Position numbers and translations under genes: made by a program. Below, one piece after another: positions 3,767 through 25,256 of a DNA stretch of 25,256 bases. The DNA is taken from IMG/VR virus record IMGVR_UViG_3300047994_000591, positions 1 to 25,256 of that record; one strand, given 5' to 3'. This DNA is from a virus. The first letter of the stretch is position 1. The number at the start of each line of letters is the position of its first letter. Under the pieces are notes generated by a model. The model searched no databases, had not been told where the DNA came from, and saw only the letters and a list, made by a program, of their open reading frames with translations.

Positions 3767-4515
3767 GCGGCGACGGAGAAGGAGATGGCGATCTTCGCCA
3801 TGCCGCTAGCCACGCTGCCCGCCGTCAGGCCATCGCCCGAGGCTTTGAAGGGCGTCGCGGCGCGGTCGAGCTTGATGGAGAGGCTCTTCTGCCGACCGGA
3901 GAACGGCACCGCCGCACCCGCTGCCGGAGCGATGGAGATGGTGAAGTCGGAGCCGAGCAGATAGTTCGCGGCGACCAGCACGGGGAGCGGCGCGGTCATT
4001 GCGCCTGGTACCCAGCGGCCCGTGCCCACGGCATCCGCCGAGGCGGTGATGGCACCCCGCTCCGGCACGTCGAGCGAGAAGCTGGTGAGCGCGAGATCCG
4101 GCACCTTGAACTTCACATCGTTGGTGTCCTCGACGTAGACGGTGGTGCAAGGCATCGTCGCGGAGATGTTGGGCACGGTGAAGGTGTGGGTGTACGGCGC
4201 GGCGTTGCCGGTGACGCTCTCCTGCCCGAAGACGAAGGCCAGCATCCAGCCGAGCAGCTGGGAGTCCGCCTCGCTCTTGATGGTGGCCTTGATGTCCCAC
4301 GCGGTGAGCTGGTCGTTGGTCGCCCACTCGGAGCCTTTGCCGACCGTGGAGTAGTCGGTGCGGCGGGTGGGCGTCTTCTCGAAGACGGTGGTCGCATCGA
4401 AGCGCTGACGGATGGTGAGATTGATCTCGGCGAGGATTCCGCCGTAGGCGATCTGTGCGTTTGGACTCAGCACCAGGTTCCGTGCGCTCTGTTTTTGCAT
4501 TGAAAAAGCTGGCAT
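3115..4515 (-). CDS. Phage tail tube protein, frame broken near 3775
   Basis: The first ~245 residues (4515 to about 3775) look like a siphovirus tail tube protein: AYGGILAEINLTIRQRF near the start, then the GKGSEWATNDQLTAWDIKA and LLGWMLAFVFGQESV segments and PYTHTF. After KIAISFSVAAQ the translation becomes Arg/Ser-rich nonsense to the stop at 3115, because the DNA there is the tail tip gene read in the wrong frame. The tip frame is offset by -1 and no slippery heptamer is visible, so programmed frameshifting is unlikely. The ATG at 4515 directly follows the TAA of the upstream gene and has GGAG nine bases upstream. The protein would normally polymerise into the tail tube; here the C-terminus is replaced. 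The intact-part call is fairly secure. Confidence 0.6.
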   Translation of the reverse strand: MPAFSMQKQSARNLVLSPNAQIAYGGILAEINLTIRQRFDATTVFEKTPTRRTDYSTVGKGSEWATNDQLTAWDIKATIKSEADSQLLGWMLAFVFGQESVTGNAAPYTHTFTVPNISATMPCTTVYVEDTNDVKFKVPDLALTSFSLDVPERGAITASADAVGTGRWVPGAMTAPLPVLVAANYLLGSDFTISIAPAAGAAVPFSGRQKSLSIKLDRAATPFKASGDGLTAGSVASGMAKIAISFSVAAQDSRSWRTATSAHSPRRSTTPESRSMSTSTAAAGRRRASATRSPRRAATSSTTSGFRTSPASRRRSPTAGWRMSSSATRTPPLRARAATFAPSLPFRSRRWPCGAPRAAASSTRMATSPDTASPQTPRGTSSKPSSAIRSSRSSPRWLASPTPRRLVLTGVLSPRPQPATTSSCPTADRASQAVTSSPPTPRSPTFWRRFSASAAAISASPTARSN

Positions 4516-4962
4516 TTATTTTTTCTCCTCTGCGACGACTGCGGACTCGACTGCGGCTGCGCGGGCTGCGTTGGCGACGGCGGCGGGAACTACGGGCGGG
4601 GCCAGCTCGAACAGCTTCCTGCCATCCGGTGCGACCTGACGGCTGAGCATAAACGCGTCCTTCTTGTACTGACTGGATAGCCCGTCGAACGTGGCGCTGG
4701 AGACGGAGGTAAGGCCACGGAGATATTGCGCCGAGTCTCCAGCAGGGAGATCCAGACGGAAGCCGAGGCTGAGATCCGCGTCGTCGTCGAAGTGCGATCG
4801 CATTCTGGAGGTGGTCGCAATCGGCACTGTCTTGCCGGTCTTGCGATGCACCTCCTTCACGATCTGCGCCCGCCCCAGCATGTTCGCTGCGGCGAGATGC
4901 TTCGCCAGCAGATCCCCGAGGCGGAGCTGCACGTTCGCGCTACGTTGGACGCGCTGGAACAC
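4516..4962 (-). CDS. Head-morphogenesis (Mu F-like) N-terminal fragment fused to another tail
   Basis: 148 residues if started at the GTG at 4962, which shares one base with the TAG stop of the preceding zinc-ribbon gene (TAGTG). An upstream reading to 5031 exists but only overlaps that gene. Residues 10-110 (LLAKHLAAANMLGRAQIVKEV, then AQYLRGLTSVSSATFDGLSSQYKKDAF) resemble the N-terminal half of Mu F / gp30-type head morphogenesis proteins, which usually run past 300 residues and follow the portal gene as here. The last ~40 residues (APPVVPAAVANAARAAAVESA) are Ala/Val-rich and do not fit that family. An in-frame deletion joining the F gene to the gene before the tail tube would explain both the fusion and the missing capsid genes. 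This is inference from remembered family patterns. Confidence 0.45.
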   Translation of the reverse strand: MFQRVQRSANVQLRLGDLLAKHLAAANMLGRAQIVKEVHRKTGKTVPIATTSRMRSHFDDDADLSLGFRLDLPAGDSAQYLRGLTSVSSATFDGLSSQYKKDAFMLSRQVAPDGRKLFELAPPVVPAAVANAARAAAVESAVVAEEKK

Positions 4963-5144: not shown

Positions 5145-6586
5145 CGTGTCACTCCTGGCTTCAGCGCGTCCGCGACCTCGGTGATGCGGGTGCGGAAGAG
5201 GCCGATGGAGTCGTCGCGCAGCTCCTGGGCGAGCTGATCGAACTGAGCCATGTCGGATAGCGCCTGCTGCTCGTGCGCGTTCTCCGTGAAGTTCTCCCTG
5301 GTCGTTTCGTTGATGGTGGGCTGCGCAGCGTTCGTGTTCGGCACCGCGATGACCTCGTCCGCTGCTGGCACCGGCACGTCGTACCGCTGCTGCAGATAGC
5401 TGACGGGGATCGGTACGCCCATCCGTTGCATGCCCTGGTCGATTCCAAGACGCGCCGTTAGATCCTCCGGCTCCTCGATGTCGTACTTCCACTTCGGCAT
5501 CGGTGCCGTTGGGCCGAAGTTCCAGAGCACGAGTGGACGGATAAGCTGGCGGTTAAGCACCGATTGCGTGGCCTTGCAGAGACGGATGGCCTTGGTGTCC
5601 TTCGTCTGCGAGTGGACGTTGCCGAGCGCCTGCGTGCCCTTGCCGCCCTCGCTACCGAAGCTGGTGAGCGTCTCGCCCAGGATGCGGCGCACGATGTCCA
5701 GCTGCATCGCGCTGTAGAACTTCTCATACACCGCAGGGTCCATCGCACGAGCGATGGTGAGCAGCTCCTTGTCGTACTCGAAGCCTTGCGGAACCCCGAG
5801 CGCCACCTGCTCGATCAGCGCCTGGGCGATGTCGGCGGCCTGTTGCTTCTGCGCTGGGTTGTCAGAGTCCTGGTAGCGCACCACGGCGGTGCCTGGTCCC
5901 TTCTCCGCATACTGCACCCATAGCCGCTGCATGTTGCGCTTGAACCAGCTCGACCAGAAGACGCTCCGCAGCAGAGGCCGCCCCATGCGATTACGCGAAC
6001 GTGGGCGATAGCTGAAGATGAGGAACTTGTCCTCCGGCACCTCCTTGCCCGAGGACGCATAGGGTGAGTCCAGGAACTGCATGGGCCCGATCTGCGGCTG
6101 GTAGCGATTGCCGAACAGGAACAGCTCCTGCGGGCAGTCCTTGATGTCTTCGAGGTTCGCCTGTCCCATGCTCACATCGAACATCATCTCGGCCACGCTG
6201 AAGCCGTAGCTGGAGGCGTCCAGCATGTTGTCCAGCGTCACGTCCAGGTTGGAGACGTTGTCGAGCTGCTGCTGGATGAACTCGGCCACGTCTGCGGCCT
6301 GCGAGGAATCGTCGGCTGGCTGGATGGTGTAGTCGCGCTCCAGCACGGCCTCCTTCAGCGAGTCGAGCGCGTTGGCGACGTCGGTGTCCTTCTCCTCCAG
6401 CTCGCGGTAGTAGAGGATTGCCGAGCCGTCGTCGCGCAGCATCGAGGACCAGATGTCGGACGGGTTGCGGGAGCCACCGAAGGCCAGCGTGTTGCGATAG
6501 AGAGCAATCTGCGTGCTGTAGAGCGCAGCCGTGCTGACGATCTCGCCAGCCGGTGGAAGTGGAGGAGTTGCGTTCACATCATCCAT
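5141..6586 (-). CDS. Phage portal protein, Mu gp29 / DUF935 type
   Basis: Forms the dodecameric ring at the capsid vertex through which DNA enters. The 481-residue protein is close to the usual family length (Mu gp29 is about 510) and looks intact. Visible family segments are SSMLRDDGSAILYYRELEEKD, LDNMLDASSYGFSVAEMMFD, PEDKFLIFSYRPRSRNRMGRPLLR cut across the middle, SSWFKRNMQRLWVQYAEKG and RRILGETLTSFG. The ATG at 6586 shares bases with the TAA of the terminase fragment (TAATG). It is the best-preserved structural gene in the element; its former neighbours, the terminase before it and the head genes after it, are truncated or missing. Confidence 0.9.
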   Translation of the reverse strand: MDDVNATPPLPPAGEIVSTAALYSTQIALYRNTLAFGGSRNPSDIWSSMLRDDGSAILYYRELEEKDTDVANALDSLKEAVLERDYTIQPADDSSQAADVAEFIQQQLDNVSNLDVTLDNMLDASSYGFSVAEMMFDVSMGQANLEDIKDCPQELFLFGNRYQPQIGPMQFLDSPYASSGKEVPEDKFLIFSYRPRSRNRMGRPLLRSVFWSSWFKRNMQRLWVQYAEKGPGTAVVRYQDSDNPAQKQQAADIAQALIEQVALGVPQGFEYDKELLTIARAMDPAVYEKFYSAMQLDIVRRILGETLTSFGSEGGKGTQALGNVHSQTKDTKAIRLCKATQSVLNRQLIRPLVLWNFGPTAPMPKWKYDIEEPEDLTARLGIDQGMQRMGVPIPVSYLQQRYDVPVPAADEVIAVPNTNAAQPTINETTRENFTENAHEQQALSDMAQFDQLAQELRDDSIGLFRTRITEVADALKPGVTR

Positions 6587-6912
6587 TACATGAATCCTTT
6601 GGTCTGCGAGTAGGAGCTTTTCATCTGGCTTGGAGTCATGCCGAGTTCAACCCTCTTTCCATCGGCGGCGAGGAGCGCCAGCGCCAGCGCCCAGAACTCA
6701 TCGGCGTGCCCAGCCTCGCTGCGCTCCGCATCGAAGCGGAAGTGGCCAGCGGCGGTCGGGATGCGGCGGATCGCATGGATCGCCGAGCGGAGGTTTCGAT
6801 CTTCGGGAGTGCGGATTGTCGTCTGCTCAAAGTGGCGACGGGTCCGCACCGCCATGTCTTCTTTCACCGCCATCGTGAAGCCGACCTCTTCCACGCGGCT
6901 GGTAACTACCCC
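6586..6912 (-). pseudogene. Terminase large subunit, C-terminal remnant (Mu gp28-like)
   Basis: About 105 residues remain of a protein that is normally near 550. The segment VVTSRVEEVGFTMAVKEDMA, then RRHFEQTTIRTPEDRNLR and RFDAERSEAGHADEFWALAL, is the end of the nuclease half of Mu gp28-type terminases. The Walker ATPase and most of the nuclease domain are absent. Family similarity begins at about 6912, where the LuxR-type gene upstream ends (stop 6906-6908) in another frame, so the 5' part appears deleted. A GTG at 6894 could start translation but a functional product is not expected. Its stop overlaps the portal ATG as in the ancestral operon. Confidence 0.78.
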
Positions 6913-7337
6913 CCAAACGCACCTGGGGCCTGTGGGGCGTTTTTGAGCCGTTCGCCCTCAATGCTCCGCTGGATGACCTCCAGCGCCTTCTTCTCGAACC
7001 GCTGCATCGCCCTCCCATGCAGCACCCGCAACTCCTGTTTCAGCTCCATAACAGCCTCGTTTGTGACCGTCCCAAACCCCGGCGTGGAATACCTCCGGTG
7101 AAGGATGGAAGCCACCAGCTCCTGCCTGTTGCCCACGCCGATCTTGTCGTAGCACTGGCCGAGGTACGTCTTCACCGTCTCCACCGCGATGCCCATCGCA
7201 TCCGCGATCTCGTGATTGGTCATCCCTTCGCAGAGCAGGTCGCCAACCTGCCGCTCCCGCAAGGTGAGTTCTCTGGACTGCGCTCCTTTCAAACCCCTCG
7301 GCGGCTTTCCCAACGGTCTACTCCCGGTGCAGTGCAA
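6906..7337 (-). CDS. LuxR-type (GerE) HTH regulator
   Basis: 143 residues if begun at the TTG at 7337; a TTG at 7313 or 7292 is possible and the start is uncertain. Residues 22-80 form a clear LuxR C-terminal helix-turn-helix: SRELTLRERQVGDLLCEGMT, NHEIADAMGIAVETVKTYLG and a final helix NRQELVASI. There is no sensor or receiver domain. The C-terminal 60 residues are helical and charged (MELKQELRVLHGRAMQRFEK) and could be a dimerisation helix or a piece of a neighbouring gene retained after a deletion. It sits just upstream of the terminase-portal genes, where it could activate late transcription as the unrelated Mor/C proteins do in Mu; that role is inferred. Confidence 0.75.
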   Translation of the reverse strand: MHCTGSRPLGKPPRGLKGAQSRELTLRERQVGDLLCEGMTNHEIADAMGIAVETVKTYLGQCYDKIGVGNRQELVASILHRRYSTPGFGTVTNEAVMELKQELRVLHGRAMQRFEKKALEVIQRSIEGERLKNAPQAPGAFGG

Positions 7338-7548
7338 TGGAACGGTTGGCCGTCATCCGCGCATCGCGGATCTGGCGGCAGGCAAACGTGCGATCCGCGC
7401 TTGGCGGGCAGCACATCATCACGACGGTCTCGAAGTTCTTCGCAGCAGCGTTGATGGCTGCGTAGCGTTCGATCTGCTCCGGCGTGGGCGTCTTGTAGCC
7501 GTAGGCATGGTCGATCTCGGCAATCTCTTCGTGCGTTAGTTCTCTCAC
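7318..7548 (-). CDS. Acb2/Tad1-family hairpin protein, probable anti-CBASS/anti-Thoeris sponge
   Basis: 76 residues from the GTG at 7548, which has AGGGAG six bases upstream; the TTG at 7563 has no such site. The body TPTPEQIERYAAINAAAKNF, then CPPSADRTFACRQIRDARMT and ANRSIALH, follows the pattern I associate with the Acb2/Tad1 hairpin family: P-x-Q-x-[ER]-Y-x-A-I, a middle C-P-x-S-x-[DE]-R, and a closing M-x-A-N-x-[SA]-I-A helix. Known members bind cyclic dinucleotides, trinucleotides or gcADPR and so block CBASS or Thoeris signalling. The gene overlaps the LuxR-type gene start and lies between it and the lysis genes. An 8 bp hairpin (7569-7576 with 7584-7591) sits just before its ribosome site. 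Family membership is judged by eye; ligand specificity is unknown. Confidence 0.65.
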   Translation of the reverse strand: MRELTHEEIAEIDHAYGYKTPTPEQIERYAAINAAAKNFETVVMMCCPPSADRTFACRQIRDARMTANRSIALHRE

Positions 7549-7726
7549 TGCTGTCTCCCTCAAACTCTGGGAGCGGTGACGGGCCGCTCCCCCTCATCTG
7601 CCAGCCTGTACTCCGATGTGGATTGGCTCTCCTCGCATACCGCGCTGCCGTCAGACAGATTGCGATTCAAGCTCCCAGCCCACTGGCTCTGTGTTGGTCG
7701 CGTTGGGGGTTGTATGTTTTCTCCGG

Positions 7727-8158
7727 CTAGGCTGCTGCCTGAGCGGTGGATGCAGCGGCGGGGATGGCCTGAACGTTCAGGATCGCCACCACGGCATTCA
7801 CCAGATTCGAGATGTAGTCCGCGTTGACCGTGATACCGGCTGCAGCCAACTCCTTAGTGACGGTCGCATCCGAGAGCATGGTCGTCACAGCGGCCTGGGC
7901 CACGGTGAGCGCGGTCGCCAGCTTCTGCGCTCCGGTGCCGCTCTGCTTTCCGGCTGCGGCGTACTTCTGCTCGGCTAAGGCGACGGTGTTTTGCAGCAGG
8001 TCGGCCACGTCGATGGAGACCTGCAGGGGTGCGACCGCAGGCGGGAAGAGGTACTTGGCCATCTGCTCGGCCAGGGGCAGATACTTCACTGCATCGGTCA
8101 GCACGACTTCAAAGTCGTGGCCGATGGCTTCGAGGACGCTAACAAACTTGTTCGACAT
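7727..8158 (-). CDS. Small phage protein of the lysis region, function unknown
   Basis: 143 residues, ATG at 8158 with AAGGAGAGA just upstream. The N-terminal ~45 residues (VLEAIGHDFEVVLTDAVKYL) are amphipathic, followed by helical repeats rich in Ala and a C-terminus ending in Ala-rich residues. The part TVAQAAVTTML...GITVNADYISNLVNAVVAIL recalls the C-terminal region of LLH-type holins, and the position after an endolysin would fit. No convincing transmembrane helix is visible, so holin is only a possibility. The 178 bp between this gene and the Acb2/Tad1-like gene hold the hairpin mentioned there and no gene that I can support. Confidence 0.5.
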   Translation of the reverse strand: MSNKFVSVLEAIGHDFEVVLTDAVKYLPLAEQMAKYLFPPAVAPLQVSIDVADLLQNTVALAEQKYAAAGKQSGTGAQKLATALTVAQAAVTTMLSDATVTKELAAAGITVNADYISNLVNAVVAILNVQAIPAAASTAQAAA

Positions 8159-8211: not shown

Positions 8212-8457
8212 TCAGTTGACAGAGGCCGCAGAGAGTTCCAGCCACTGGACCAGCTTGGCCTCGCAGTAGTTCATGGTGAACATGAACGGCTTCTTCACGA
8301 CCTGCGCCTTGAACGTCACACCGTCGTACTGGTAGGTGGCCGTGAAGCCGCTCTTGCTCAGCGTTCCGCTGCTTCCGGTCATCGTCAGACCCTGCTGCGC
8401 GAACAACCTGTCACCCGCCGCGTCGTACTCCGCAGGGGTCATCTTCACCTCGATCAT
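8212..8457 (-). CDS. Small conserved-looking phage protein, function unknown
   Basis: 81 residues. Its ATG at 8457 overlaps the endolysin stop as ATGA, so it is co-translated with the endolysin. The sequence reads as a short helix (MTPAEYDAAGDRLFAQQG) followed by beta strands (TLSKSGFTATYQYDGVTFKA) and another helix near the end. No signal peptide, membrane helix or catalytic motif is seen. The position suggests an accessory in lysis or virion release, which is inference. Confidence 0.55.
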   Translation of the reverse strand: MIEVKMTPAEYDAAGDRLFAQQGLTMTGSSGTLSKSGFTATYQYDGVTFKAQVVKKPFMFTMNYCEAKLVQWLELSAASVN

Positions 8458-8960
8458 GCTGCCTCCTTCGCCGCTGGCGCATCGGGACTGTCCGGCGGCG
8501 TGATGTCGTATTTGTTCAGCTCGTAGTACTCGACCAGGTCGACGAGCTGAAGGGCGTAGGCCGGGTTCGTCGAGTACCCTGCAACCTTGATCGCCGCCGC
8601 GAAGGCCGCGTAGTCGCCGGTGTGGCGCATCGCATCCGCATAGCGCGGCAGGGTGGCCAGCAACTTGCCGTGGGCGCTGAAGCTCTCAATCGCGGAGGGA
8701 TACCGGGCGAAGCGCGCCAGCTCCGCGACGTTGCGGCCCTCGACGACCTCGACCGTGGGAAGCTCGACGTAATCCTGCCCCTGGATGGCCTTGACGCCGA
8801 AGTAGTTATTGCAACGCCGCGCCAGTTGCGACTGGCCCCAGCCCGATTCGAGGATGCACTGCGCCAGCGTGATCGACGCCGGGACGCGCCACAGACGCTG
8901 GCTGAGCTGCGCCGGTGCGACCATCGTCTGAAGCCATGCGAGTTGAAGCTTGGTTGCCAT
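8454..8960 (-). CDS. GH73-type glucosaminidase endolysin (FlgJ-like)
   Basis: Peptidoglycan hydrolase that cleaves the glycan strand at the end of infection. The 168 residues from the ATG at 8960 match the mannosyl-glycoprotein endo-beta-N-acetylglucosaminidase / FlgJ domain: ITLAQCILESGWGQSQLA contains the catalytic Glu38, followed by NNYFGVKA, the FARYPS motif and a closing Y-x-x-N-x-x-Y-A segment (GYSTNPAYALQLVDLV). A longer reading from a TTG at 9017 has AGGAGG immediately against it, which is poor spacing. There is no signal peptide, so export would need a holin or similar. It is the first gene of the leftward lysis-to-structure cluster. Confidence 0.85.
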   Translation of the reverse strand: MATKLQLAWLQTMVAPAQLSQRLWRVPASITLAQCILESGWGQSQLARRCNNYFGVKAIQGQDYVELPTVEVVEGRNVAELARFARYPSAIESFSAHGKLLATLPRYADAMRHTGDYAAFAAAIKVAGYSTNPAYALQLVDLVEYYELNKYDITPPDSPDAPAAKEAA

Positions 8961-9218
8961 CTGCGCCGAATCCCTCTCCGTAGATAGGGGCGCGGCTGGG
9001 GTGCTCTCCAGCCGCAACCTCCTGCTCTGGGTCCACCCACTTTCCTTTCGGGGAAGTTGTGGGTTGCCGACCGTACAGGTCTGACTGGAGAGTATTTCGA
9101 TGCTATCTAATAGCTGATCGAGGGTGGCTTAGGCCGTGCGCTTGCGCTGGAGCAACCCTTTCTACGGAGTGCGAATCGCAACTTGTGTACGTCCCCACCA
9201 AGGCGACACGAGACTGAC

Positions 9219-9248
9219 GAGGCCCGCAACGTCGCGGGCCTCTTTTTT
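9219..9248 (+). terminator. Rho-independent terminator pointing right, without a rightward gene
   Basis: A perfect 9 bp stem (GAGGCCCGC 9219-9227, GCGGGCCTC 9234-9242) with a 6-base loop is followed by six T on the plus strand. The only genes nearby are on the minus strand, where no T run follows the hairpin. The stretch 8961-9246 upstream has no credible gene and could hold a leader for the lysis operon and a short rightward RNA ending here. Confidence 0.65.
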
Positions 9249-10053
9249 ATGCCGCCTGCTTCAGGCTTCGATTCGAGATAAGAACCTCCGCTGCCTTGCT
9301 CCGCTTGTCCGCGACTCCGGTCAGGGTGTACGCCACCTCGACCCCACGCACCTTCATGCCGTGGCGCTTCGCCAGGGAGCGAACCTCGGCACAGTCGTCG
9401 AAGCTCATCAGGAAGCTGCCCTTGAGATCAGCGAGGGTGGCGAAGAGTTGCACCCGCTGCTCCTCCGTCAACGGAGAGTACCTGCCATTAGGCTGGAACT
9501 TGACATACGGCGGATCGAGATAGAACCACGTCTGTGCGGAGTCATACCGTTCGAGGATCTGCTCAAAGCTGCGCTGCTCGATCAGCACGTTGCGGAGACG
9601 CTGCGACGTGTCGTCCAGCAATTCGCGCACACGCTCCAGGGAGCGCTTCATCTTCGCCGACTTCGTATCGAGCTTGCCCTTGGCGTTGGAACTGGCGAAG
9701 TGCTCCCCCTTAGCACCGAAGCTGTACCAGGCGAGATAGGCGAAGCGGTGCGCCCGTTGCAGCTCATCGTCCGGCTGGGGCTGCCCGCGCAGCTCACGAA
9801 AGCGCTCGGCATGCACCACCTCATGATCGAAGAGTTCCGCCAGCGCGGCGGGACGGTGCTTGGCGACGCGGAAGAAGTTCGTCACTTCCCCGTTCAAATC
9901 GTTCATCACTTCACAGCGGGACTGAGGTTTCGCAAAGAGGAGCTTCGCAGATCGGGCGAATACCTCCACATACACGTCGTGCTCGGGAATCAAGGACAAC
10001 AGCGTCTTCTTCAGGTAGCGCTTACCACCTGGCCATGCAAATGGGGAGTTCAT
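9247..10053 (-). CDS. Dam-family (D12 class) DNA adenine-N6 methyltransferase
   Basis: Transfers a methyl group from S-adenosylmethionine to adenine in a short DNA site, typically to protect phage DNA from restriction. 268 residues from the ATG at 10053; a TTG at 10089 is less likely. Family marks are FAWPGGKRYLKK at the start (cofactor motif I of this circularly ordered class), then MNDLNGEVTNFFRVAK, AYLAWYSFGAKGEHFA in the middle, and the catalytic DPPY in WFYLDPPYV, followed by a FLMSFDDC strand. No restriction endonuclease lies beside it, so it is an orphan methylase of the prophage. Recognition sequence cannot be read from the protein. It is oriented with the repressor arm. Confidence 0.85.
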   Translation of the reverse strand: MNSPFAWPGGKRYLKKTLLSLIPEHDVYVEVFARSAKLLFAKPQSRCEVMNDLNGEVTNFFRVAKHRPAALAELFDHEVVHAERFRELRGQPQPDDELQRAHRFAYLAWYSFGAKGEHFASSNAKGKLDTKSAKMKRSLERVRELLDDTSQRLRNVLIEQRSFEQILERYDSAQTWFYLDPPYVKFQPNGRYSPLTEEQRVQLFATLADLKGSFLMSFDDCAEVRSLAKRHGMKVRGVEVAYTLTGVADKRSKAAEVLISNRSLKQAA

Positions 10054-10117
10054 GTTCGGCAGCGTAGCTCGACAGAGAGTAAACGACAATCACCGCTTCG
10101 GAGGGGATGGGACGAGA

Positions 10118-11586: not shown

Positions 11587-12077
11587 GTTCTTCACGTACT
11601 CAGTCTCACGCCCACCGCTCTGCGCCGTCACCGGCTAACTGTGTGCAAAATTTTGCCTCATCGGAGCAGGAATCGCTGTCGTTCGACTCCGACGTCGTCC
11701 CTTCCGGCAGCCTGGATGACTCTTCCGTTATCAGGGGAGTGCTGATCCAGTCGATCAAGCGCAGCGTCAAAACCCGCGCCGCCATTGCAGAACAGATGGA
11801 ATATCTGTTGGCGAGAACGATAACGGAAAAGATGCTCAACGCGTTCACCGCTGAATCCCGCGATGACCGCCGCTGGCCTGCCGAGTTCGACCGCGCCTTC
11901 TGCAAAGCGACCGGCGACAACACCTTGCTGGCCTGCCGCGCCGAGATGGCTGGCCTGCACGTCATCACCGACGAAGAGAAGATGTTGCTCGAACTTGGAC
12001 GCCAATTCCTGCTCCGCAACCAGGCCGACGAGCAGATTGCGTTGCTCCAGCGCCGCCTGCATGGGAGGGCGCTATGA
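11583..12077 (+). CDS. Conserved pre-transposase phage protein
   Basis: 164 residues. The first ~45 are Ser-rich and look disordered. The rest is one helical domain with VLIQSIKRSVKTRAAIAEQM, an internal AFTAESRDDRRWPAEFDRAF motif, GDNTLLACRAEMAGLHV and a final leucine-rich helix. I associate this type with the gene just before the transposase in Mu-like phages of deltaproteobacteria and Acidobacteria. The first helices could form a DNA-binding HTH. It is coupled on both sides by ATGA overlaps, so it is made with the transposase. Role unknown; a transposition accessory or early regulator is inferred. Confidence 0.65.
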   Translation: MSSSRTQSHAHRSAPSPANCVQNFASSEQESLSFDSDVVPSGSLDDSSVIRGVLIQSIKRSVKTRAAIAEQMEYLLARTITEKMLNAFTAESRDDRRWPAEFDRAFCKATGDNTLLACRAEMAGLHVITDEEKMLLELGRQFLLRNQADEQIALLQRRLHGRAL

Positions 12078-13843
12078 GCTACTCCGCCGCTTGGATCGGC
12101 AAGGATCAGGTCTGCCTGCTCACCGGATGGACCCCGCGCAGCGTCGAGCGCAAGGTCATCGCGGGGGAGTTGGAGGTCCGCGACTGCGACGAGCGCACCC
12201 GCAACGGTCGCATCGTGAAAGAGTATGCGGTGGCCTCGTTGCCTGAAGCCGTCCGCGCCAAGCTGGTGAGCCAGAGACGCACCCCTGAGACCGCATACGC
12301 CGCTTTGGACAGTGGCGTCGCGGCCAGCCAAGTAGAAGGACCGCTGTTCGCCTCCGCAGCAGCCCCTTCGTCTCTCGCTCCCCAGACTCGCATCGCCCTC
12401 ACGCCCGAGGGTGAGCGTCAGGCCGAGGAGCGGCTGGCCATCCTGCAGCCGCTCCTCGACTACATCCACAACCCCGGTGGCCGCGCTCGCTTCGCCCAGC
12501 TCCGCCTCGCCGATGGCCGCCGCGTCACCAGCTCCGACCTGCTGGCGATGTACCTCGCGGAGACACACTCCCAGACCGGACTCCGGATCAGCCGCGCCAC
12601 CCTCTGGAGCTGGAAGAAGGCGTACACCGAGGGAGGCTTCAACGCGCTGGCTCCCAAGGTCCGCAGCGACAAGGGAACCTCCCGCTGGTTCGCCCAGAAC
12701 CCCGACGCCGCGAAGCTGGTGGCCTCGGTCTACCTCAAGCCATACCAGACGGTGCAGACGGCCTACAACGCGCTCCTGCGGGAGCACGAGATGCTGGGAG
12801 TCAGCGCTGCCGAGCTGCCCAGCTACGAGACCGTCCGGAGCTTCCTCGACACCCTCCCCAAGCCCATTAGCGTCCTCGCCCGCGAAGGCGAACGCGCCCA
12901 CTCTGAACGCATGAGCCTGTACCTGCAGCGTGGATACGACGACGTCGCCGCCAACCAGATCTGGGTGAGCGACCACATGATCCATGACGTCTTCGTGTGG
13001 AACGATTGCTTCCCGTCCGAGACCGAGGGCAGGCAGATGCGGCTCCGGCTGACCATGATCCTGGACATGCGGACGCGCAAGCCGGTCGGTTACTCCTGGA
13101 CGCCGGAGGGCAGCAGCAACTCCATCAAGAGTGCGCTGCGCCGCGCCGTGATGGCTTACGGCCCCTGCGAGTCCTTCTATTGCGATAACGGGAGGGACTT
13201 CCAGAAGGTGGCGCGGGGCGGTTCGCTGCTCGGCATCACCGACCAGGACGCGCAGCTGCTGGACGCGGAGCTGGCCGAGATCGACCGGCGTGGCGTCCTC
13301 ACCCGACTCGGCATCCCCACCCAGCATTGCCTGAAGTACCATCCGCAGTCCAAGCACGTCGAGCGCTTCTTCCGCACCCTCCATCTGCAGTTCGATGCGA
13401 AGTTCAACGCCTACACCACCGGCAATGCCTACACCCGCACCGACGCCGCCAACGTCCTCTCCATCCAGCACCGCAAGCTGCAGAAGCTCGGCCTGCATCA
13501 GGAGTCGAAGCTGATGCCCGCAAGCGTCTTCATCCAGATGTGCGCCATGTGGCTGGAGGAGGTCTATTCCAACCAGCCGCATCGTGGAAAGGGAATGGAC
13601 GGCCTCACCCCCAACGAGGCTTTCGAGGCTGGCTATCCGGTGGCTCAGCGCCGCAGCATCGCGCCAGAGGCCCTGGAGGAGCTGCTCTGGGAGAACAAGC
13701 TGGTGCGGGTGCCATCCGCGACAGCCTCGACGAATACGAGCGCGCCGAAGCCCAGCGCATGCTCGATGTACGCGATGCCGCCCAGGAGGAGTTCCTCCGC
13801 GCCATCTCCGGCCATCCTTCCGCCTTGGCGAATCGCGCCGTAA
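12074..13843 (+). CDS. MuA-type DDE transposase, C-terminal frame broken near 13705
   Basis: Catalyses strand transfer of the prophage ends. Residues 1-65 are a MuA-like N-terminal HTH (IGKDQVCLLTGWTPRSVERK). A further HTH region follows at about 160-240. The RNase H-like core carries Asp300 (WVSDHMIHD), Asp371 (FYCDNGRDF) and Glu430 (SKHVERFFRTL), with spacing close to MuA. After EELLWENKLVRV the frame turns into low-complexity sequence to the stop at 13843. In the -1 frame a normal-looking helical C-terminus (IRDSLDEYERAEAQRMLDV to the TAG at 13855-13857) follows, and that TAG overlaps the next gene's GTG. The usual C-terminal beta-barrel is not seen, so a deletion or frameshift joined these pieces. 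No MuB gene follows. Activity is doubtful though the core is intact. Confidence 0.88.
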   Translation: MSYSAAWIGKDQVCLLTGWTPRSVERKVIAGELEVRDCDERTRNGRIVKEYAVASLPEAVRAKLVSQRRTPETAYAALDSGVAASQVEGPLFASAAAPSSLAPQTRIALTPEGERQAEERLAILQPLLDYIHNPGGRARFAQLRLADGRRVTSSDLLAMYLAETHSQTGLRISRATLWSWKKAYTEGGFNALAPKVRSDKGTSRWFAQNPDAAKLVASVYLKPYQTVQTAYNALLREHEMLGVSAAELPSYETVRSFLDTLPKPISVLAREGERAHSERMSLYLQRGYDDVAANQIWVSDHMIHDVFVWNDCFPSETEGRQMRLRLTMILDMRTRKPVGYSWTPEGSSNSIKSALRRAVMAYGPCESFYCDNGRDFQKVARGGSLLGITDQDAQLLDAELAEIDRRGVLTRLGIPTQHCLKYHPQSKHVERFFRTLHLQFDAKFNAYTTGNAYTRTDAANVLSIQHRKLQKLGLHQESKLMPASVFIQMCAMWLEEVYSNQPHRGKGMDGLTPNEAFEAGYPVAQRRSIAPEALEELLWENKLVRVPSATASTNTSAPKPSACSMYAMPPRRSSSAPSPAILPPWRIAP

Positions 13844-23169: not shown

Positions 23170-23393
23170 CGCCTTTGATTTGAGTGAGTTGGTCTATTTT
23201 GGGGCTTGACAGCACTTCGCGGTGGGTCGAGGTGGGCTTTTACGGCGTTCCGCTTTTCTTGTCTGGATTGTTCTTTCACTGCTTCTCTACGGATTCTTTA
23301 CAGCTCCTTTACTTGCCTGGAAGCTAGACTCCTTTTGGTGCCGGGACGGTTTGCGGAGCAGGTGGCCTGCGGATCCGGCGGATGGAGCCTGGT

Positions 23394-25256
23394 ATGTCTT
23401 TTTTCGATGTAGTGATCGGTAAGCCTCTGGCGACGACGGAGGAGCGAGCGGAGCATATCGGGCCGATCGCAGGAATTCCTGTGTTTGGGCTGGATGCGTT
23501 GAGCTCGGCCGCGTATGGTCCGGAGGCGGCGCTGACGTTGCTGATTCCGCTGGGTGCGGCGGGGATTGCCCATATTGTTCCGATCAGCCTGGCGATTATT
23601 GCGTTGTTGGCGGTGGTGTACTTTTCGTACCTGCAGACGATTGATGCGTATCCGCATGGGGGTGGGAGCTACACGGTTGCGTCGGAGAACCTGGGCGAGT
23701 CGGCGGGGCTGCTGGCGGCTGCTGCGCTGATGATCGACTACGTGCTGAACGCGGCGGTGGGGATCTCGGCGGGTGTGGGTGCGCTGGTGTCGGCGTTTCC
23801 GCGGCTGCAGCCGCATACGCTGGCGCTGTGCCTGGGAATCCTGGCGGTGCTGACGCTGATCAACATGCGGGGGGTGCGGGATACGGGGTCGGCGTTCCTG
23901 CTGCCGACGTATCTGTTCCTGGGGACGCTGCTGCTGGTGCTGATTGTGGGCGGAGTGAGGGCGGTGATGGCGGGTGGGCATCCGGCGGCGGTGGTGGCGC
24001 CACCGGTGCTGCCGGCGGGTACGTCGATGCTGACGCTGTGGCTGCTGCTGAAGGTGTTTGCGAGCGGATGCACGGCGATGACGGGCGTGGAGGCGGTGAG
24101 TAATGGGGTGATGGCGTTTCGCGAGCCGACGCAGAGGAATGCGAAGCGCACGCTGACGATCATCATCGTGCTGCTGATGGTGTTTCTGGCCGGGATTGCG
24201 CTGCTGTGCCGGGCGTATGGGATTGGGGCGACGGATCCGACGGGAGCGGGGTACCAGAGTATTCTGTCGCAGCTGACGTCGGCGGTGATGGGGCGAGGGT
24301 GGTTTTACTACCTGACGATCGGGTCGATCCTGGCGGTGCTGGCGCTCTCGGCGAATACGTCGTATGCAGATTTTCCGCGGCTGACGCGGGCGATTGCGCA
24401 GCGGGATTATCTGCCGCATGTGTTCAAGATTCGGGGGCGGCGGTTGCTGTACTCGCATGGTATCTATGCGCTGGTAGGGTTCACGGGGTTTCTGCTGATT
24501 GTGTTTGGCGGGGTGACGGACCGACTGATTCCGCTGTTTGCGATTGGTGCGTTCCTGGCGTTTACGCTGTCGCAGGCTGGCATGGTGGTGCACTGGAGGC
24601 GGGAGGGAGGCGCGGGTTCGGGGCGCCGGATGTTTGTGAATGGCGTGGGTGCGGTGGCTACGGGCGTGACGCTGATGGTGGTGCTGGTGGCGAAGTTCAC
24701 GGAGGGTGCGTGGATTACGGCGATCCTGGTACCGGCGCTGATTCTGGTGATGAGCCGGGTGAAGCGACACTATGACCGGGTGAATCGGGAGATGGCGGCA
24801 GACCGGCCGATGCGGCTGGATAATCTGCAGGAGCCGCTGGTGATTGTTCCGCTGGAGCGATGGACGCGGATTACGGAGAAGGGGCTGCGGTTTGCACTGA
24901 AGCTGAGCGACCATGTGCAGGCGGTGCATGTGGACGCGGAGGAGTGCAGCGATGAGGTGCAGCAGATGTGGCAGCGGAATGTGGAAGAGCCGATTCGGAA
25001 GGCGGGGAGGATGGTACCGGAGCTGGTGCTGGTGAAATCACCGTACCGGTTCGTGATTGTGCCGTTGGTGGACTACATCCTGAAGGTGGAGCATGATCAT
25101 CCAGACCGGCAGATTGCGGTGCTGGTTCCGGAGCTGGTGGTGAAGCACTGGTGGGAGGCTCTGCTGCATAACCAGCGGGCGCAGCTGCTGAAGCTGCTGC
25201 TGCTGGTGCGGGGGAATCACCGAATTATGGTGATTAATATTCCCTGGTACCTGTAG
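23394..25256 (+). CDS. APC-superfamily permease, KimA/YdaO-like (probable potassium uptake)
   Basis: Inner-membrane transporter of 620 residues. The N-terminus PVFGLDALSSAAYGPEAALT and the segment YPHGGGSYTVASENLGESAG are typical of the KimA (YdaO) branch of the APC superfamily, which in Bacillus imports K+ with protons and is controlled by cyclic di-AMP. About twelve hydrophobic helices span residues 25-460, followed by a ~160-residue cytosolic domain with an alternating strand/helix pattern (PLVIVPLERWTRITEKGLRF...HVQAVHVDAEE) like a universal-stress-type fold. The ATG at 23394 is chosen because GGAG lies six bases upstream; the ATG at 23382 is the alternative. The stop is the last codon of the window, so the gene is complete. 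Amino-acid transport cannot be excluded. Confidence 0.75.
   Translation: MSFFDVVIGKPLATTEERAEHIGPIAGIPVFGLDALSSAAYGPEAALTLLIPLGAAGIAHIVPISLAIIALLAVVYFSYLQTIDAYPHGGGSYTVASENLGESAGLLAAAALMIDYVLNAAVGISAGVGALVSAFPRLQPHTLALCLGILAVLTLINMRGVRDTGSAFLLPTYLFLGTLLLVLIVGGVRAVMAGGHPAAVVAPPVLPAGTSMLTLWLLLKVFASGCTAMTGVEAVSNGVMAFREPTQRNAKRTLTIIIVLLMVFLAGIALLCRAYGIGATDPTGAGYQSILSQLTSAVMGRGWFYYLTIGSILAVLALSANTSYADFPRLTRAIAQRDYLPHVFKIRGRRLLYSHGIYALVGFTGFLLIVFGGVTDRLIPLFAIGAFLAFTLSQAGMVVHWRREGGAGSGRRMFVNGVGAVATGVTLMVVLVAKFTEGAWITAILVPALILVMSRVKRHYDRVNREMAADRPMRLDNLQEPLVIVPLERWTRITEKGLRFALKLSDHVQAVHVDAEECSDEVQQMWQRNVEEPIRKAGRMVPELVLVKSPYRFVIVPLVDYILKVEHDHPDRQIAVLVPELVVKHWWEALLHNQRAQLLKLLLLVRGNHRIMVINIPWYL

Follow-up and report, generated by a model that had tools for sequence, protein, structure and literature searches.

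Does a 76-codon gene in a Mu-like prophage, probably of a soil acidobacterium, encode a sponge for bacterial defence signals, and if so, for which signal? The Acb2/Tad1 family consists of described phage proteins that soak up the nucleotides with which bacteria raise the alarm in anti-phage defence. The gene lies in a virus record of 25,256 bases that was analysed whole and is referred to here as the window. An original prediction had identified its product as of the Acb2/Tad1 type, and the family match and predicted fold reported below support that identity. From these data we consider a signal sponge of the Acb2 type to be the probable product of the gene.

The gene and its candidate ribosome-binding site are located as follows:

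7318..7548, minus strand: Acb2/Tad1-hairpin family protein, 76 aa, stop included in the coordinates, GTG start (PF24729, phrog_1454, AlphaFold/Foldseek, low dN against high dS)
7555..7560, minus strand: Shine-Dalgarno-like AGGGAG, 6 nt ahead of the GTG, read from the sequence

The 76 codons and the stop fill the interval exactly, with GTG at 7548 and the stop at 7318, and the plus-strand frame across 7318-7548 is not open. The coordinates originally proposed were therefore exact, and the strand, which had not been given, is now fixed as minus. All three stretches quoted at that time (PEQIERYAAI, CPPSADRT and ARMTANRSIA) are present in the ORF, and the ribosome site that had been claimed is found at 7560-7555, ahead of a start whose position the homologues share. 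The gene is short and is overlapped by long antisense ORFs in a GC-rich window, as a chance ORF or a spurious motif match might be; that explanation is hardly credible and is refuted by selection and homology. Four homologues of 71-74% identity differ from the window gene at 35-42 third positions and at 9-19 first and second positions, with dN at ∼0.21-0.24 and dS, in the three computable pairs, at ∼1.3-1.6. This third-position excess, together with low dN against high dS, shows that the gene is a real protein-coding sequence under purifying selection. Moreover, tblastn matches (E 1e-4) were found in 109 loci, most of them gathered by similarity, and the domain score is far over its cut-off.

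The profile search suggested with the original prediction gave a clear match. PF24729, the Acb2/Tad1 hairpin domain of Pfam, scored 44.6 bits (cut-off 27 bits; E 1.6e-11) and aligned residues 17-72 of the window protein with positions 1-57 of a 58-position profile; T4-type Acb2 scores 71.3 bits with the same model. PHROG 1454 (phrog_1454) matched with an E-value of 4.6e-12. NCBIfam and PADLOC returned no match for the sponge protein, which means only that these libraries hold no model for such a protein. A single-sequence search of the PDB gave a chance hit only, profile searches of the PDB were weak or empty and did not reach the solved Acb2/Tad1 chains significantly, and hhalign gave the window branch and T4-type Acb2 a probability of 5%.

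An AlphaFold monomer model, built from a 63-row alignment of viral relatives, is all helical (mean pLDDT 96) and consists of one short N-terminal helix (residues 6-16) followed by two long antiparallel helices (23-46 and 51-72) that form a hairpin. The first six rows of a Foldseek search against the PDB were taken by 7uq2 (T4 Vs.4/Acb2 with cGAMP) and by 8h2x and 8h2j (Pseudomonas-phage Acb2), with probabilities of 0.69-0.99 and E-values of 0.25-2. VIA-align placed 7uq2 at rank 1 with Z 7.0 over 66 residues, with unrelated helical hairpins at 6-7, and most leading matches in BFVD, including the top rows, were named Acb2/Tad1 hairpin domain proteins. The window protein is thus predicted to have the fold of an Acb2 protomer. 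The fold alone would not identify the protein, since the Foldseek E-values against the PDB exceed 0.1 and the VIA Z values lie among those of unrelated helical hairpins; the family assignment is carried by Pfam. Either the lack of a family match or a fold other than the hairpin had been named as grounds for dropping the prediction, and what we found was a PF24729 match and the predicted layout of an Acb2 protomer. The novelty of the assignment is low, as the hairpin domain is already in Pfam and UniProt already names such proteins.

Among the characterized members, the window protein resembles Acb2 (T4 Vs.4, 7uq2; Pseudomonas phage, 8h2x/8h2j) in its Pfam domain, in its short helix and two-helix hairpin without a beta domain, and in keeping the hexamer-interface positions and the stacking tyrosine. 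It differs from T4-type Acb2 in being only 30% identical in the alignment and in lacking the T4-type loop insertion. In common with Tad1 (Thoeris anti-defence 1, 7uaw) it has the PF24729 hairpin domain, as Pfam defines it, and the two long helices, over which VIA-align aligns 7uaw (Z 3.9). However, in Tad1 an N-terminal antiparallel beta-sheet domain precedes these helices, whereas the window protein is all helical and only 76 aa long; membership in Tad1 was set aside because the beta domain is absent from the AlphaFold model. Uncharacterized soil-phage proteins (Tunturi_1 gp101, Phabba and ScoobyDoobyDoo gp210) belong to the hairpin family by Pfam or by UniProt name and are 37-43% identical to the window protein, although their phage backgrounds are unrelated to that of the window.

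Longer proteins with a hairpin domain were also observed. Two contigs of 235-275 kb (L051:5992-6897 and L054:5992-6897) hold a 302-aa ORF in which an N-terminal Acb2/Tad1 hairpin is followed by two head-protein-like segments (phrog_544 and phrog_2522); the AlphaFold model of this fusion (pLDDT 35) was too poor for use. The joining of a sponge domain to capsid-like repeats is odd, given that Thoeris is reported to sense the major head protein (PMC12043709). At L050:5995-6579, a 195-aa protein combines an N-terminal hairpin domain with a long C-terminal tail without a family match.

The original prediction had regarded the protein as a possible divergent branch on the basis of MTAN in place of MWAN and a doubled cysteine. 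This part did not hold. Isolated phages carry MWAC (T4-type), MWAN (Sitara), FWAN (Jenst), MFAN (UBSmoodge) and MTAN (Tunturi_1 and ScoobyDoobyDoo) at this position, so that divergence on the ground of MTAN was rejected; the 237 viral relatives that we found with MTAN-bearing search patterns are not a valid count of MTAN frequency. As for the cysteines, C47 is common in the family, and of the two only C46 has no counterpart in the other aligned sequences. Like MTAN, the C-P motif is no evidence of an unusual branch.

More can be learned from residues with a demonstrated role. In T4 Vs.4, Y8 and F82 stack on cGAMP, and Y8, H11, K23 and R79 bond to it; mutants show that the hexamer depends on L29, A66, A73 and A77, and stacking on Y8 (PMC10097602). 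We mapped these residues onto the window protein with a MAFFT alignment, and hhalign gives the same register with low probability. The hexamer positions L29, A66, A73 and A77 correspond to F39 (a conservative change), A56, A63 and A67, and among the 63 relatives aligned A67 is invariant, small residues nearly always occupy the A56 and A63 positions, and 58 relatives have F or L at the F39 position. To judge from the alignment, the T4 hexamer signature is kept. The dinucleotide pocket, read from the same alignment, differs from that of T4: Y8 and R79 are retained as Y18 and R69, whereas H11, K23 and F82 are replaced by P21, N33 and A72. Across the 63 relatives Y18, P21 and A72 are invariant, so that none has F82 or H11 of T4, and the K23 position is R or N. 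Since F82 and H11 are replaced in all 63 relatives, the ligand is not readable from the sequence.

The changed pocket, with F82 and H11 lost from 63/63 relatives, raises the possibility that the same sponge architecture belongs to a branch tuned to a ligand outside the dinucleotide set of T4 Acb2. This would refine the sponge reading without contradicting it, and we hold it as possible rather than probable. Candidate ligands would be cyclic trinucleotides bound at the trimer interface, as Acb2 and Tad1 possess separate trinucleotide sites (PMC12043709), or ADP-ribose signals made by TIR proteins. Loss of F82 is no mark of a special ligand, however, since Sitara, a member of the MWAN type, also lacks it, as do Jenst and UBSmoodge; furthermore, the beta domain of Tad1 is absent.

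The possible sources of a signal were sought in the host, whose family can be placed from the genes that flank the element:

1-876: uracil-DNA glycosylase family protein (PF03167), host-like flanking gene
23382-25256: amino acid permease (PF13520), host-like flanking gene

Among genomes of the family to which Acidobacteriales bacterium 59-55 belongs, the best match to the permease gene is 77% identical, which would make the host a soil acidobacterium, placed at family level only. Three loci were inspected for an empty insertion site, and none showed one. We surveyed 200 genomes of this family, to which the acidobacterium with the closest chromosomal homologue of the sponge (L017, in genome G001, which is bacterium 59-55 itself) belongs. 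Over cut-off in these were CD-NTase (PF18144) in 12, ThsB TIR (PF08937) in 31 and PF24729 in 7. Possible makers of a ligand, CD-NTase and ThsB TIR, are thus present in the host family, and the co-occurrence of the hairpin family with CD-NTase in the host genomes was not significant (2/8 versus 12/192, Fisher p 0.10).

Bacterium 59-55 carries, besides its sponge-bearing Mu-like prophage (L017), a Thoeris-like cluster on contig C5 (L135:7077-13827) with six ThsB/TIR genes, a SLOG-patatin phospholipase protein and a further SLOG protein, adjoining MazG_C and Nmad2 genes; no SMODS match was found in this genome. That the nearest chromosomal homologue occurs in a genome with such a cluster is suggestive of a TIR-made signal, and counts for a ligand outside the T4 set, yet one genome with a TIR cluster is close to the base rate of 31/200. 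A more specific version would be that in the hairpin-only sponges of this branch, which are common in soil phages, the remodelled pocket sequesters a signal that T4-type Acb2 does not, from a TIR/SLOG pathway or another cyclic nucleotide as yet uncharted; a protein of Acb2 shape would then act in the manner of Tad1 in Acidobacteria. We regard this as rather unlikely.

The setting of the gene bears on whether a sponge is the right reading at all. Between the host-like flanks, where a repressor-like HTH protein is also encoded, the following features were identified:

12074..13843, plus strand: Mu-type transposase (phrog_310, E 1.1e-72)
9247..10089, minus strand: Dam-type adenine methyltransferase (PF02086, E 1.9e-18; phrog_56)
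8454..9017, minus strand: endolysin, glucosaminidase (PF01832, E 5.5e-30; phrog_3513)
8212..8457, minus strand: 81-aa protein, next after the endolysin in relatives (synteny), no family match in Pfam or PHROG
7727..8158, minus strand: 143-aa protein directly upstream of the sponge gene, no family match in Pfam or PHROG
6906..7337, minus strand: LuxR/GerE-type HTH ORF (PF00196, 55.8 bits), overlapping the sponge gene by 20 bp with the first TTG as its start
6586..6894, minus strand: last ∼100 aa of the large terminase (TerL), the N-terminal ATPase part missing; 82% identity with the end of the TerL of relative L119, which is intact at 448 aa
5141..6586, minus strand: Mu-type portal protein (PF06074, E 3.7e-71)

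The Mu portal and the phrog_310 transposase in the same element bear out the transposable prophage that had been predicted. In Mu-like relatives the order of genes is broadly kept, with odd genes missing: transposase, regulator, repressor, methyltransferase, endolysin, small lysis-region genes, sponge, terminase genes and portal. The placing of the sponge gene between lysis genes and a LuxR-type regulator, also part of the original prediction, is correct for the window, but the LuxR neighbor is incidental. No LuxR-type ORF was found beside the sponge gene in other loci, with a distant homologue elsewhere in L119, and the LuxR ORF as a conserved partner was rejected. Homologues of the 143-aa protein lie just upstream of the sponge in L001 and in the more distant phages L008 and L031. 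They were also seen in L120 and L132, two loci that yielded no sponge.

A position in the lysis region of Mu-like phages, together with the fusions of hairpin domains to head-protein-like segments in large phages, could mean that the hairpin is a small helical protein of general use in phages, with a part in structure or lysis, and that only some PF24729 members act as sponges. We consider this improbable. The stacking tyrosine is invariant, and no function is common to the neighbors of the family: across 79 neighbors of family members in diverse phages there was no recurring partner gene, and of the 49 PHROG families represented nearly every one was matched by a single neighbor. The absence of a recurring neighbor favors a stand-alone gene. 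Nor is the gene a fixed part of the region. When relatives were sampled through the portal, and not the sponge, to avoid bias, six distinct relatives with the slot covered were obtained (L123, a contig already found through the sponge, was left out), and most lack the gene: PF24729 occurs in the slot in 1/6 (L119) and is absent in 5/6 (L120, L126, L128, L132 and L134). This agrees with the accessory slot that had been proposed, here a variable position in the lysis region.

The closest phage relative by portal (80%) is L119, in which the PF24729 gene at L119:6347-6700 occupies the same slot; it scores 49.6 bits to PF24729 and is ∼22% identical to the window's gene (BLASTP). Two upstream features concern this comparison and the regulation of the gene:

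7600..7687, minus strand: non-coding block ahead of the sponge gene; 76% identity with its counterpart ahead of the very different L119 sponge gene
7569..7591, minus strand: 8-bp GC-rich inverted repeat with a 7-nt loop and no T run, upstream of the sponge gene (z -0.5 against shuffles)

The shared block measures 89 bp and lies just upstream of the sponge gene, and the presence of so different a gene in the same slot behind conserved non-coding sequence suggests exchange of sponge genes at an accessory slot. The upstream hairpin that had been pointed out does exist, but shuffled versions of the stretch that holds it fold just as well. A search for promoter- and terminator-like sites gave none upstream of the sponge gene, and a role of the hairpin as terminator or regulator is unsupported.

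The prophage itself appears to be defective, with packaging and head genes lost, a point that the original prediction does not raise. In relatives ∼2.4-3.4 kb separate the sponge from the matching end of TerL, an interval that holds small membrane proteins, terminase small-subunit-like genes and most of TerL. In the window it holds the LuxR ORF only and then the TerL end; the N-terminal ∼350 aa of TerL and the preceding genes are missing. Likewise, a head gene (gpG, so called here) and the tail-tube-like p466 are ∼5.6-6.4 kb apart in L125, L126, L128 and L134, with head genes in between, and touch in the window (4515-4516). The losses represent either two internal deletions or an assembly join. 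Because the prophage looks defective, the sponge gene may have no present use in it.

On the sponge reading, the protein would be made during induction or infection and, as in its family, would assemble into a compact hexamer. The hexamer would bind a cyclic or TIR-derived nucleotide made by CBASS, Thoeris or a similar system upon sensing of the phage, and would hold it uncleaved, so that the suicide effector stays off.

In conclusion, hundreds of hairpin-only relatives have the hexamer signature in common and the T4 pocket absent, so that their ligand range is not assignable by homology. If the sponge reading is correct, the gene places a Mu-like phage lineage of Acidobacteria among the known carriers of signal sponges, and would imply that the little-studied soil Acidobacteria use a nucleotide-signalling defence that their phages must silence.
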